DNA of 22,110 nt from the IMG/VR virus record IMGVR_UViG_3300020172_002308, positions 1-22,110 of that record. One strand, 5' to 3'. Source of the stretch: a virus. A program made the translations under genes and the position numbers. The notes beneath the pieces were generated by a model, which worked only from the letters and a program-made list of their open reading frames with translations, ran no database searches and was not told the DNA's origin. Shown here one piece after another: positions 4,513 to 14,967 of the stretch; positions within the stretch are counted from its first letter, which is position 1, and the number at the start of each line of letters is the position of its first letter.

Positions 4513-4879
4513 TTTCTACCACTCTTCTGGTAACGATCAAAAGATGGTGCAACGCGCCTTTGAACCCCATATATTTACGAATGCTAATAATTTCTAATGG
4601 TCCAACTTCAAGTACATTACCATATCTATCTCTAACATTTTGAATTCTATTATTATAAGTTATATATTGAGCATCTTGATGAGATATATAAAATTCATAT
4701 TCATCAATATTGTCAACATACGGCTCAATTCTTCTTTCGCTTCTTTTTGCTTGGAATACGGCGGGGACAGTCGCTGACTTTGCAAATGTAGTTGTTCTCT
4801 GACCTGCACTATTTGTTGATGTTGTTCTTTCATAAACATCTACTTTATGAACAAATCTTAAATATGTTTTTGCACTCAT
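4505..4879 (-). CDS. Head closure / stopper protein (SPP1 gp16-like)
   Basis: A 124-aa beta-rich protein starting MSAKTYLRFVHKVDVYERTTS. The pattern of an N-terminal VDVYE strand, GQRTTTF, a middle IEPY segment and DRYGNVLEVGPLEIISIRKYMG near the C-terminus fits the head closure family that seals the portal channel after packaging and joins the tail. Its size (110-125 aa) fits. ATG 4879 overlaps the upstream TAA. Assignment is by fold-type pattern and gene order, not by a unique motif. Confidence 0.75.
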   Translation of the reverse strand: MSAKTYLRFVHKVDVYERTTSTNSAGQRTTTFAKSATVPAVFQAKRSERRIEPYVDNIDEYEFYISHQDAQYITYNNRIQNVRDRYGNVLEVGPLEIISIRKYMGFKGALHHLLIVTRRVVENA

Positions 4880-5790
4880 TACACAATATAATCCATCACA
4901 AAAAGCGTATAGTCCATTAAAAGAACATCTGCTTCAATATTGCCAGTAGTTTCATAGAATGTATCTTTCATATAAACAGTAAGAGCATCCATCTCAACTC
5001 TAGTCATTCCATGCGCTCTGTATTCATAATCGTTATTCATAATGTCAGCAATAAGAATGTCACAAGCCTGTTTAACATTTTCAGGAACAAATCTCCAACC
5101 AAAATCTCCAGAAATCTGATATGTCAAATCTGGATCCCATCTTCCTAATACAAAAATTTCTTCTGGTTCGGATGTTTTCTTAAATCTAATGTTGTAAGTG
5201 GTGTCAAAGTTGAATGGTTGTCTAATCTTCTCTACCCTGTCGACAGTCTCGCTAAGAAGTATGAATTCATCATCTTCGCCCGGCTCTTGGATAACACTTC
5301 TTAAAGTCGTTACAGGGATTGGCAATCTTAATGACGAATAATTATTTCCATTAATGGTCATTGTCTTGTTTGGATAGAAGTCAAAAGACTGACCGCAGTA
5401 TGTGTCAACTGCATTTCTAACCCTCTTGGCAATTGACTCAAACTTATTACCAAATTCATCATCCAATTCAGGGTGATTGTCAAAGAATTCAGCAGAAGTG
5501 ATATAAGGGGTAAAGACATTTATATATTTTGATTGGGTATACTGAGTCCCAGAAACGGTATATGTGAAATCAGCCCTGTGTCGCCCTGCTGAATTTAAAA
5601 TATAGATACCAGAGGCTTGTTGCCCATATGTAATTGTATAAGTCCCTGTGCCCGTTCTGGTGGCGCTGGTTGGGCCTGAGACCAGATCACCGAGTTCATG
5701 GTATAGGGATACAGAAACCAGATTTGAAGTCGGGTCAGAAGGCAATGTCAAAGTTAGCGTCTTTGATGTGTTTATCTTAACTTCTTCCAT
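4879..5790 (-). CDS. Head-tail connector (gp6/gp15-like) with N-terminal beta domain
   Basis: A 303-aa adaptor that would bind the portal ring. The C-terminal two-thirds fit the gp6/SPP1 gp15-like connector family: YITSAEFFDNHPELDD and VRNAVDTYCGQSFDFY helices, then a beta segment, then helical YEYRAHGMTRVEMDALTV. The first ~100 residues (TLTLTLPSDPTSNLVSVSLY and YTITYGQQASG) are an added beta-sandwich domain not present in minimal connectors, whose length is about 100-110 aa in HK97. GAGG lies before ATG 5790. The stop overlaps the next ATG (TAATG at 4879). It begins the connector/tail gene block. Confidence 0.82.
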   Translation of the reverse strand: MEEVKINTSKTLTLTLPSDPTSNLVSVSLYHELGDLVSGPTSATRTGTGTYTITYGQQASGIYILNSAGRHRADFTYTVSGTQYTQSKYINVFTPYITSAEFFDNHPELDDEFGNKFESIAKRVRNAVDTYCGQSFDFYPNKTMTINGNNYSSLRLPIPVTTLRSVIQEPGEDDEFILLSETVDRVEKIRQPFNFDTTYNIRFKKTSEPEEIFVLGRWDPDLTYQISGDFGWRFVPENVKQACDILIADIMNNDYEYRAHGMTRVEMDALTVYMKDTFYETTGNIEADVLLMDYTLFVMDYIV

Positions 5791-11380: not shown

Positions 11381-11655
11381 TAATAATTTCCTCCGTCTAA
11401 TAGCGTGTTTGCAATTGAGTGGACATGATCCGCTCTACTTGCAAGCTCTAAAACCCCAGAACTGCCTGTTCTGGCAATGTCAGATGGCGTTGCATCCGAC
11501 AAAGTTAGTATTCTTTCGAGTGTTATAGTTGCAGGAGTTGAGTTAAGGACTGTAATATCCCCATCTCTAACTACGACATTTGTTACATCAGATTCTGTAA
11601 TTGTAACATTTGTTACATCTCCAGTATCTACTCTTAATGTAGTAATATCAGCCAT
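11380..11655 (-). CDS. Short tail-fibre-like protein (91 aa)
   Basis: A 91-aa protein with a repetitive beta-rich N-terminus (DTGDVTNVTITESDVTNVVVRDGD, shown in part: GDVTNVTI, SDVTNVVV) and the ASRADHVHS sequence near the C-terminus. A D-H-V-H motif preceded by Ala-Ser-Arg is a recurring element of phage tail-fibre proteins where His residues can bind metal within trimers. It ends in LLDGGNY. GGAGA lies 8 bases before the ATG, and the TAA overlaps the start of the long fibre gene (TAATG at 11380). Likely a fibre connector or a separated N-terminal module of the fibre. Confidence 0.75.
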   Translation of the reverse strand: MADITTLRVDTGDVTNVTITESDVTNVVVRDGDITVLNSTPATITLERILTLSDATPSDIARTGSSGVLELASRADHVHSIANTLLDGGNY

Positions 11656-11983
11656 TGCTTATGTCTCCGATAACTGTGACTTTACCTCCCATAAGAGTTG
11701 TCACAACAGAACCATTAATCTCTTCTAAGTCATAATAGTATATACCACTAGAAATATTTGCAGTATTACTAGAAGTCATTGAAAAGGTTAATATGCCGTT
11801 GGCAGCGTTTGTTATTGTCGTTGTAAATGATGCAACTATAGAATCAGAACCTTTTGATTTTTTAATTTGAGCAGCATAAGTACGACCAGATATATTAATT
11901 GCAGTATTTGCAGAGTTTTTTATACGTGCTTCATGCGTATAAGAATCTCCTTGATAAATTGATATATCTCTTGATGCAGCCAT
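11648..11983 (-). CDS. BppU-like baseplate/fibre-attachment protein (N-terminal domain only)
   Basis: A 111-aa protein beginning MAASRDISIYQGDSYTHEARI. The short ISIYQGD strand followed by an alternating beta sandwich (YAAQIKKSKG, GILTFSMTSSNTANI, GIYYYDLEEI) matches the N-terminal domain of phage upper baseplate proteins of the BppU type, which dock receptor-binding proteins to the tail tip. The trimeric fibre body of BppU is absent, so this may be an attachment adaptor for the fibres that follow. It begins two bases after the Cys-rich peptide gene, with no good ribosome binding site of its own, implying coupling to it. It overlaps the next gene by 8 bases. Confidence 0.75.
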   Translation of the reverse strand: MAASRDISIYQGDSYTHEARIKNSANTAINISGRTYAAQIKKSKGSDSIVASFTTTITNAANGILTFSMTSSNTANISSGIYYYDLEEINGSVVTTLMGGKVTVIGDISNG

Positions 11984-11985
11984 AA

Positions 11986-12066
11986 TTAGCAGTCACACGC
12001 CTCACATCCGCAATCGCATTGTTCAACACATTCACAACCACATTCGCATGATTTATTTCTAGTCAT
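11986..12066 (-). CDS. 26-aa cysteine-rich peptide (nine Cys), unknown function
   Basis: A tiny open frame of 26 codons plus TAA. Nine of 26 residues are Cys, in CECGCEC, QCDCGC and ACDC blocks separated by acidic residues. A strong ribosome binding site, GGAGG six bases before the ATG, sits in the short gap after the holin-like gene, and the TAA is two bases from the ATG of the baseplate-like gene, so it fits exactly into the operon. This is strong evidence that it is a real gene despite its size. The C-x-C repeats resemble metallothionein-like or zinc/iron-binding peptides. In a reducing cytoplasm it would bind metal; exported it would form disulfides, but there is no signal peptide. Function is unknown; I know of no named family. 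Confidence 0.72.
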   Translation of the reverse strand: MTRNKSCECGCECVEQCDCGCEACDC

Positions 12067-12078
12067 TTTAAACCTCCA

Positions 12079-12297
12079 TTAATCCTTTGTTTTTCCAGCA
12101 AAGTATCCACCGATAATTCCTATGAGTCCTACAAGAGCATTCTGTACTAATGCAATCGATTCTGGGTTTGTAGCAACCGCTTCACCAGTTTGATTTTGTG
12201 CATACATCATTGCCGTATATTCACCAATAACAACAAGGCCAATAAAACCGAGTATCCCAATGGTAATTATCCACATTAATTTGTCTTTCATTTGCAT
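12079..12297 (-). CDS. Small two-helix membrane protein, holin-like (72 aa)
   Basis: A 72-aa protein starting MQMKDKLMWIITIGILGF. The start at 12297 is chosen because AGGAG lies ten bases upstream and because it follows the endolysin stop; a longer reading frame from 12333 would overlap the endolysin by 31 bases without a better site. Two membrane helices are visible, about residues 7-29 (LMWIITIGILGFIGLVVIGEY) and 49-66 (LVQNALVGLIGIIGGYFAG), with a short loop and a KTKD tail. This is the classic class II holin topology and it may be the actual holin, with the two upstream proteins as helpers or antagonists. It ends 12 bases before the Cys-rich peptide gene. Confidence 0.75.
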   Translation of the reverse strand: MQMKDKLMWIITIGILGFIGLVVIGEYTAMMYAQNQTGEAVATNPESIALVQNALVGLIGIIGGYFAGKTKD

Positions 12298-12302
12298 AAT
12301 AA

Positions 12303-12833
12303 TTATGCTCCTGGTTTTGGAATAGCTTTCCAAGCTGCTTCCATTTTTGCAGCATCTTCAGCAACTTCTTTTTCAAATTCTAGATGCAACCACTGGCCTC
12401 CAAAAGACCCGGCATTCTCTTTTTCATTATAGACCTTTACCCCAGCCATACCTTCACCTCTTGAGCAACGGTAACCTCTTCCATAGCCAGGCTTTCCATC
12501 TTTAGCGTTTGAATCAAATGCATAATCATGAATCTCTACAATTCCTAATTCTTTCGTATGAGTAATGAACCACTCCCACATAGCAAGACCAGTCTTACGA
12601 TCTGGATAGCCGATATCGCAAGCAGCACCCGTTGCATGAACGGACAGCCATTTCTCCATTCCTGGATCTCCAATTTTCTTACCTGCTGTATGAGAATTTC
12701 TCATCAATCTTGGAGAATAGATCCCCATATTTGTTGCCTTCCATCTACGACCACAAGCCATGACGAACCATTCAACGCCAGCGCCTGCCTTTTTTCCGTC
12801 AAAAGCGGGATAATATGGATATTTCCTGGGCAT
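12303..12833 (-). CDS. Endolysin, M15-type peptidase (D-Ala-D-Ala carboxypeptidase/L-Ala-D-Glu endopeptidase-like)
   Basis: A 176-aa peptidoglycan peptidase that would cut the host cell wall at the end of infection. The zinc-binding signature of peptidase family M15 is visible: SVHATGAACDIGY gives S-x-H-x-x-G-x-A-x-D with His66 and Asp73, and GGQWLHLEF supplies the third ligand His150. An EIHDY segment near residue 100 lies where a catalytic acidic region is expected. No signal peptide or separate wall-binding domain is seen, so it relies on a holin. Length fits single-domain M15 endolysins. ATG 12833 overlaps the upstream holin stop. Start codon and motif order are unambiguous; the exact bond cleaved cannot be told from sequence. 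Confidence 0.88.
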   Translation of the reverse strand: MPRKYPYYPAFDGKKAGAGVEWFVMACGRRWKATNMGIYSPRLMRNSHTAGKKIGDPGMEKWLSVHATGAACDIGYPDRKTGLAMWEWFITHTKELGIVEIHDYAFDSNAKDGKPGYGRGYRCSRGEGMAGVKVYNEKENAGSFGGQWLHLEFEKEVAEDAAKMEAAWKAIPKPGA

Positions 12834-13329: not shown

Positions 13330-14967
13330 TTATTCATCATTTTTAGCCATTACGCTTAGGTAATGGATTAAGAATGCAATCGATGTTGCAATCAATGTAA
13401 TCTTTCTTGTGTCCCCAGAAAGAGTTGCAAAAACAATAACTGTGCTAGATATTGTGAATGCAAGGGCAGCAGTTTCTCTGCTGAATTTTTTAATGAAATT
13501 CCATATACTAAATTTCTTCATTCCTTCCTCCGTGTATTTAAAAATACTATTTCTTGTAAAGTCACCATCATCTCCTCCCTCTGGGCCTTCGATTTCTGGT
13601 GCCTCCTCTTCCTCTTCAGACTCCTCCTCATCCTTTTTAAAATGAGAATTTGGTCCACCGCCATTATTGTTATTTGAATTCCCTCCAGATGGCGTAGGAG
13701 AGCCACTAGAGCCTCCTACAACCGTTATTGCAGATACAGCGCCCATTGCTGCTAAAAGTGTTCTGCGGTTTTTAACACTTATTTCAGAACCAACGGGAAC
13801 ATATTCATCAAACCCTTCTGCATAGATATTTATTTCGCCCTCAAATGCTTCTTTAACTTCATCTGGTGCATTTTGAACAGCCTCTATAATTTCACCCTTT
13901 TCTTCTTCAGTAATTGTGGATGTATCAATAGCATTAAAAACTTCTTGTGCGTCTTCTTTACTTATTTCCTCCAAGACCTCTGGAGAAGTAGCAACATCTA
14001 CAGCCTGATCTGGCGTAATTTCTTCAGTAATAACTGCTGGCAATGTAGTTGTTGTAGGTGGAATAGTTGTTGTAGACGATGTTGTTGTGGTTGTCGTAGT
14101 TGTTGGTGCAACCGTTGTCGTGGTAGTCGTTGTTGTGGTCGTTGTTACCAATGGCAATTGAAAAAACAAAGTTGTTGTGGTTACTGGTACGGTTGTAGTC
14201 GTTGGGGGCAATGTCGTTGTTGTTGTAGTTGTGGTAGTTGTTGGTAGCGTCAAACCAATGACTTCATTGCTCCAGCCAGAATAAACCGAAAGTGAGTCAT
14301 TGTCAGCTCTTACTTTAAATTTGCATGACTGATCAGATTCAAGGTTTTCAATAATTGCAGATGTTGTTGTTGATGAAATAGCAAAACCAGACTCCCAGTT
14401 GTTGCATGACCAAAATATGGCATAACGCTCAACCTCTACATTTGACTGTTCTGGTGCAGTCCAAGATAGATACACCTTGCTTTCATTTGTTGATGTAACC
14501 TCAAGATTTTGCGGGTTATTTAGATATGGTGCAATAGTGGTAGTTGTTGTAGTAGTTGTCGTGGTAGTTGTAGTCTGATTTGATATTAAAGATGTTGATG
14601 TTTCAAAAGAATAACTCTGTCCATACCATCTGTTTGGATCACCACAGCAAACACCTGTTCTTAAACGATATGTGCCAGGTTGTAGATTAATGGATATATT
14701 TGAATCAAGACCATAATAGTCATCATTTGCAGTTAAGACATTATCCTGAGAGTCATAGAGCCATAGCATTGAGTCGATACCATACTGCTGAGCATAGGTA
14801 CGAACGGTAAAATTTTGAGGCTCATCAAAAGTAAAGTAAAAGTCATTTGCCCCAGATGTTGCATAGTTATCAGCCTTAACAGGGCTTGAAATAAACGATG
14901 TGAGAATAGAAATAAAGCAGACAATAAATAACGGAATAGAACCTTTTCTTAATCTTAACTTTCTCAC
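13330..14967 (-). CDS. Exported, membrane-anchored protein with PPC-like domain, FN3 domain and poly-Thr linkers
   Basis: A 545-aa protein of unknown function with a clear export layout. Residues 1-32 are a signal peptide (basic MRKLRLRK, hydrophobic core, SSPVKA cleavage). About 36-130 resemble a pre-peptidase C-terminal-like beta domain (MLWLYDSQDNVL, LQPGTYRLR). Residue 132-144 is a Thr run; 150-239 is a fibronectin type III domain with an SWTAPE strand and two cysteines; 242-309 is a Thr/Pro linker. An acidic helical region (313-380), a hydrophobic RRTLLAAMG segment (401-419), a Ser/Gly/Asn stretch, an acidic patch (446-470) and two membrane helices (about 499-517 and 523-541) follow. GTG is the only start that retains the signal peptide; a stop lies two codons upstream. 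Such poly-Thr linkers are typical of actinobacterial surface proteins, so host origin is likely. It sits directly before the lysis genes. Confidence 0.85.
   Translation of the reverse strand: MRKLRLRKGSIPLFIVCFISILTSFISSPVKADNYATSGANDFYFTFDEPQNFTVRTYAQQYGIDSMLWLYDSQDNVLTANDDYYGLDSNISINLQPGTYRLRTGVCCGDPNRWYGQSYSFETSTSLISNQTTTTTTTTTTTTTIAPYLNNPQNLEVTSTNESKVYLSWTAPEQSNVEVERYAIFWSCNNWESGFAISSTTTSAIIENLESDQSCKFKVRADNDSLSVYSGWSNEVIGLTLPTTTTTTTTTTLPPTTTTVPVTTTTLFFQLPLVTTTTTTTTTTTVAPTTTTTTTTSSTTTIPPTTTTLPAVITEEITPDQAVDVATSPEVLEEISKEDAQEVFNAIDTSTITEEEKGEIIEAVQNAPDEVKEAFEGEINIYAEGFDEYVPVGSEISVKNRRTLLAAMGAVSAITVVGGSSGSPTPSGGNSNNNNGGGPNSHFKKDEEESEEEEEAPEIEGPEGGDDGDFTRNSIFKYTEEGMKKFSIWNFIKKFSRETAALAFTISSTVIVFATLSGDTRKITLIATSIAFLIHYLSVMAKNDE
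14041..14244 (-). repeat. Long Thr/Pro-coding low-complexity repeat
   Basis: Residues about 242-309 of the exported protein are nearly all Thr with Pro, Val and Leu interruptions (for example TTTTLPPTTTTVPVTTTT). Tandem ACN codons give a GTTGTTGTC-like pattern on the plus strand. This is the longer of two such linkers in the gene and is prone to length variation. It would span roughly 68 residues between FN3 and the acidic helical region. Confidence 0.8.
14536..14574 (-). repeat. Trinucleotide ACN repeat encoding a 13-Thr run
   Basis: Tandem ACA/ACT/ACC codons encode residues 132-144 of the exported protein. The run separates the first beta domain from the FN3 domain and is an extended, probably rigid or glycosylatable linker. 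Mixed codons show the repeat is kept at protein level rather than being a pure nucleotide slippage tract. Confidence 0.8.

Follow-up and report, generated by a model that had tools for sequence, protein, structure and literature searches.

The 22,110-nt window, taken from the IMG/VR record IMGVR_UViG_3300020172_002308, contains a very short ORF on the minus strand (12066 to 11986) that encodes the peptide MTRNKSCECGCECVEQCDCGCEACDC and ends in TAA. The ORF is 81 nt long and nine of its 26 residues are cysteines (35%), as an earlier sequence-only reading had reported; that reading gave no strand, and the plus-strand reading of 11986-12066 is interrupted by a stop codon. A Shine-Dalgarno sequence, GGAGG (12073-12077, minus strand), lies six nucleotides before the ATG, from which it is separated by TTTAAA. 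Between the end of the upstream gene (12079) and the start of the downstream gene (11983) is a 95-nt gap (11984-12078), filled by the Shine-Dalgarno sequence and the ORF, with 2 nt between the peptide stop codon and the downstream ATG. The ribosome-binding site and the exact fit between neighbours had both been described before and both stand.

The downstream gene g11648 (11648-11983, minus strand) encodes a 111-residue tail-fibre-assembly-like protein, which resembles the 'L-shaped tail fiber protein assembly' PHROGs in profile searches (phrog_1084, 3.4e-23; phrog_3304, 1.5e-7). Upstream lies a gene for a small membrane protein of 84 residues (12079-12333, minus strand), holin-like by position and hydrophobicity and with no convincing match in the family libraries searched. 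This gene is absent from one relative (L002), which is otherwise nearly identical (98% in the endolysin) and in which the endolysin gene directly precedes the peptide gene. By comparison of the window with this relative, the membrane protein gene was apparently inserted into, or lost from, the lysis cassette recently. The sequence-only reading placed the peptide between lysis and baseplate genes. The lysis side holds, given the membrane protein and the endolysin described below, but the baseplate assignment is imprecise, and 'tail-fibre associated' is the safer description of g11648 in view of its PHROG matches.

The M15-like endolysin (12303-12833, minus strand) is recognisable by its invariant SVHxT...D and W-x-H-x-E motifs, which read SVHATGxAxD and WxHxE in the window and its relatives; it has no Pfam, PHROG or NCBIfam match. 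Some of its relatives carry C-terminal peptidoglycan-binding domains. About 80 environmental virus loci (L013-L092) encode this endolysin at 61-98% identity; most of them are without the window's downstream genes, so it seems to be widely exchanged. Positions 13330-14967 encode a 545-residue protein with a signal-peptide-like start, long threonine tracts (TTTTTT) and a C-terminal membrane segment; homologues with similar tracts are present in most relatives and are split into two ORFs in some. The head-tail adaptor gene g4879 (4879-5790, minus strand) matches phrog_442 (1.8e-8). At the contig end, 21420-22109 holds the C-terminal part of a gene that by eye is ribonucleotide reductase-like, and a ribonucleotide reductase is also encoded at the matching place in the Streptomyces phage Moab.

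Moab belongs to the Stanwilliamsviridae, and its portal and capsid are 44% and 50% identical, respectively, to those of the window. The portal, protease, capsid, adaptor and tail genes are collinear in the two. The carrier can be assigned to a Stanwilliamsviridae-like phage lineage, a likeness of identity and gene order rather than of taxonomy rules. Because these same features match Streptomyces phages, an actinobacterial host is likely. The corresponding 35 kb of Moab contain no CxCxCxC motif.

Composition alone is weak support for a gene, as the unlikeliness of one such sequence is modest: one of 100 Markov-shuffled windows contained an ATG-initiated ORF of 20-40 residues with at least nine cysteines. 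Since a similar ORF would turn up about once in every hundred such windows, the single sequence is no proof of a gene, and against this chance level it is conservation in 36 distinct relatives that decides the matter. Relatives were fetched from IMG/VR via the downstream protein and via the endolysin, with the peptide kept out of the query, and the peptide was present at every locus found through these flanks that held both. A pattern scan for the nine-Cys spacing returned 72 stretches. About 63 belong to the family, told apart by a stop codon directly after the last cysteine; the rest are repeats or other frames. The IMG/VR contigs contain 36 distinct coding sequences and, in addition, the variant L041, in which Asp replaces the first Gly. 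The family aligns as R-x-K-x-C-x-C-G-C-[E/D]-C-x-[E/D]-[Q/H]-C-D-C-G-C-[E/D]-x-C-D-C, with the cysteine spacing C-x-C-G-C-[ED]-C-x3-C-x-C-G-C-[ED]-x-C-x-C.

The pattern scan itself demanded the cysteines, and their invariance is claimed solely from the 13 distinct members to which flanking genes alone had led, all of which (13/13) keep all nine. Both TGT and TGC are used at each position, so that the synonymous third-base changes named in the sequence-only reading as confirming coding are seen at nine of nine Cys codons. The lysine is invariant, the arginine near-invariant, and the stop codon follows the last cysteine in 36/36, none of which was imposed by a search. Over all columns, pN/pS is 0.18 for the 13 flank-found members; over the columns fixed by no search (those other than Cys and two Gly) it is 0.41 for the flank-found members and 0.52 for the whole set. 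Many members have a Shine-Dalgarno sequence of their own (AGGAG, AGGAGG or GAGGT), while in a subgroup without one the peptide ATG overlaps the endolysin stop codon, an arrangement indicative of translational coupling. Stops, frameshifts or lost cysteines beside retained flanks were also looked for: relatives bearing the ORF keep every cysteine, and one clade cleanly lacks the ORF. The comparison thus identifies the nine-Cys ORF as a real, strongly conserved protein-coding gene common to the whole phage lineage, and shows it to be under purifying selection at a fixed late-region position within that lineage.

A short Cys-rich ORF just before another gene might alternatively be a regulatory leader, in which translation would respond to the supply of Cys-tRNA and regulate the gene that follows. 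ORFs of this kind stand before cys operons in Actinobacteria (PMC1262725), and the stop codon of the peptide gene always lies near the next start. However, those leaders have runs of Cys codons and precede cysteine-metabolism genes, whereas the Cys codons of the peptide gene alternate with others, without runs, and its downstream genes are virion genes, which vary between relatives. The phage peptide is conserved as a protein, with purifying selection on the non-Cys columns and retention of lysine, arginine, glycine and acidic residues, and no conserved RNA fold was found beyond that of synonymous shuffles. The gene thus lacks the features of a Cys leader peptide or attenuator, having neither Cys-codon runs, nor an amino-acid gene downstream, nor conservation confined to codons, and we regard this explanation as highly improbable.

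The peptide gene lies after the lysis region in all relatives that carry it, with the next start no more than about 35 nt away. This start is that of g11648 or, in other relatives, of the head-tail adaptor gene, which then directly follows the peptide gene in place of the tail-fibre-assembly-like gene. An apparent rule that g11648 is always accompanied by the peptide (73/73 loci) proved to be a sampling effect: a sample based on the adaptor contained many loci without the peptide and revealed a clade that lacks it. In this clade only 33 nt separate the stop codon of a different endolysin from g11648, too few for the ORF, and the absence is clean, with no decayed copy. It coincides with a VanY-like endolysin bearing a C-terminal peptidoglycan-binding domain (L433, L441 and other loci). 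A divergent tree of 47 adaptors places the 21 rows without the peptide in a single supported clade, so that one change accounts for presence and absence. The tree suggests that the peptide is ancestral and was lost once, although the peptide itself had led to many of the carriers, and non-carriers yet to be discovered could raise the number of changes. One copy is present in each of eight larger carrier contigs, and none elsewhere in two contigs of the peptide-less clade.

Such constancy of position, with the next gene always g11648 or the adaptor, and inheritance together with virion genes on the adaptor tree would suit a small virion part, namely a metal- or disulfide-stabilised peptide in the neck, tail or fibre. 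The peptide-less clade nevertheless retains g11648, g11380, g9782, g8449 and the adaptor; virions of this kind can therefore be built without the peptide, which argues against an essential virion part. The downstream partner also differs between lineages, and a product of 25-33 residues with hardly any hydrophobic ones likewise speaks against such a role. We consider a virion part unlikely.

The upstream side of the locus bears on a second role, that of a lysis helper that withholds zinc from the zinc-dependent M15 endolysin, or hands zinc to it, and so times lysis. The peptide adjoins the M15-like endolysin in the window and in many relatives, and is sometimes translationally coupled to it. 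Against this, the same endolysin occurs without the peptide at 63 loci (some of them contig ends), and the peptide is also found beside a VanY enzyme with a binding domain, a glycosidase-like lysin or a nuclease. A dedicated zinc donor or inhibitor for the M15-like endolysin is disfavoured by this two-way independence, and we deem it very unlikely. In some relatives (L380, L386 and L184) the gene directly upstream of the peptide is small and, by eye, staphylococcal-nuclease-like.

The peptide has no match in Pfam, PHROG, NCBIfam or the PDB, in keeping with the earlier remark that no named family was known for it. None of 32 aligned members matched the Pfam bacterial metallothionein profile (SmtA/Pseudomonas MT) at E up to 10, a threshold at which HMMER composition filters could still hide a weak match. 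More generally, no sequence match to any metallothionein family was obtained, though composition filters may hide one, and the peptide appears to be without detectable membership of a known family. Fungal copper and vertebrate metallothioneins gave no PDB match and differ in cysteine spacing. A tblastn search of isolated phages and plasmids yielded none or chance matches, possibly owing to masking as low complexity, and blastn of the gene yielded chance partial matches only and no isolated phage. The full nine-Cys pattern is present in 0/396 Actinomycetota genomes, while a looser pattern in bacterial genomes gave no family member among the matches listed, which are mostly CGCGCG simple repeats. 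No phage or viral metallothionein was found in the literature searched, which leaves aside most subscription papers and preprints, and a metallothionein-like phage peptide is described in none of the libraries or literature covered. Although its lineage has diverged deeply, the gene has persisted there, at a size that eludes both gene callers and profile searches; it shows that short Cys-rich genes can be overlooked in environmental virus genomes.

Known metallothioneins come from animals, plants, fungi and some bacteria. The 36 members of the phage family share their hallmarks: they are small, about one third Cys and rich in C-x-C motifs, with no Trp and with aromatic residues in only 5/36. 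Acidic residues lie between the cysteines, and a third of members have His at position 16. A structure look-up starting from the Neurospora sequence gave two solved chains comparable in size and C-x-C arrangement, 1t2y and 1m0j, both metallothioneins of 25-28 residues. The same 35% Cys and CxC motifs could belong to a thiol redox buffer or antioxidant that forms reversible disulfides rather than a metal cluster, and metallothioneins themselves scavenge oxidants (PMC7387436). The number of cysteines is odd and constant across the family, however, which makes a purely redox or disulfide-bonded peptide less likely, and neither a thioredoxin-type fold nor a CxxC active site is present; we give this alternative little credence. 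The sequence-only reading had allowed metal binding or redox function, and of the two metal binding fits best.

We therefore propose, with fair but not high confidence, that the peptide works like a metallothionein, as a late metal-thiolate peptide with a nine-Cys cluster. We infer that it would be made late in infection and that, in the reducing host cytoplasm, its nine thiolates would enclose d10 metal ions, either Zn2+ or Cu+, in a single cluster of the M3Cys9 or multi-Cu(I) type. Metal would then be buffered or sequestered late in infection. The phage might benefit because assembly and lysis are protected against metal or oxidative stress, or because metal is withdrawn from the host. The clade without the peptide counts against the metallothionein-like reading, and no metal-regulated promoter or metal gene was seen beside the peptide. 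The peptide opens the question of phage control over metal in infected cells. More tentatively, and with the balance of our judgement slightly against it, the family may represent a phage-only class of miniature metallothionein, a viral metal-homeostasis gene for which no cellular ancestor was found, inherited vertically in an environmental phage lineage of wide occurrence and acting late in infection to manipulate the host cell's metal pool.

Several known systems resemble the phage peptide in part. The copper metallothionein of Neurospora crassa (1t2y) is similar in its 25 residues, C-x-C pairs and Gly/Ser spacers, but is eukaryotic, has seven cysteines (C-x-C-x5-C-x-C-x3-C-x-C-x2-C) rather than nine, and shows no detectable homology. 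Bacterial SmtA/Pseudomonas metallothioneins are longer, at about 55-80 residues, and differ from the phage peptide in having a zinc-finger fold and His ligands. They too have nine cysteines, and PflQ2 MT of Pseudomonas forms Zn3Cys9His and Cd4Cys9His (PMC7387436). In the mammalian beta-domain, nine cysteines are the complement for a cluster of three divalent ions (Zn3Cys9; PMC10243857). The beta-domain structure 1m0j shares with the phage peptide the stretch C-x-C-x3-C-x-C ... x2-C-x-C, but the domain spreads its cysteines over about 25 residues as against 20, is less acidic and belongs to a two-domain protein. Finally, MymT of Mycobacterium tuberculosis, predicted to bind up to six Cu(I), differs in being cellular, 4.9 kDa and needed for copper resistance, but is likewise the product of a small, formerly unannotated actinobacterial Cys-rich ORF (PMC7558416).
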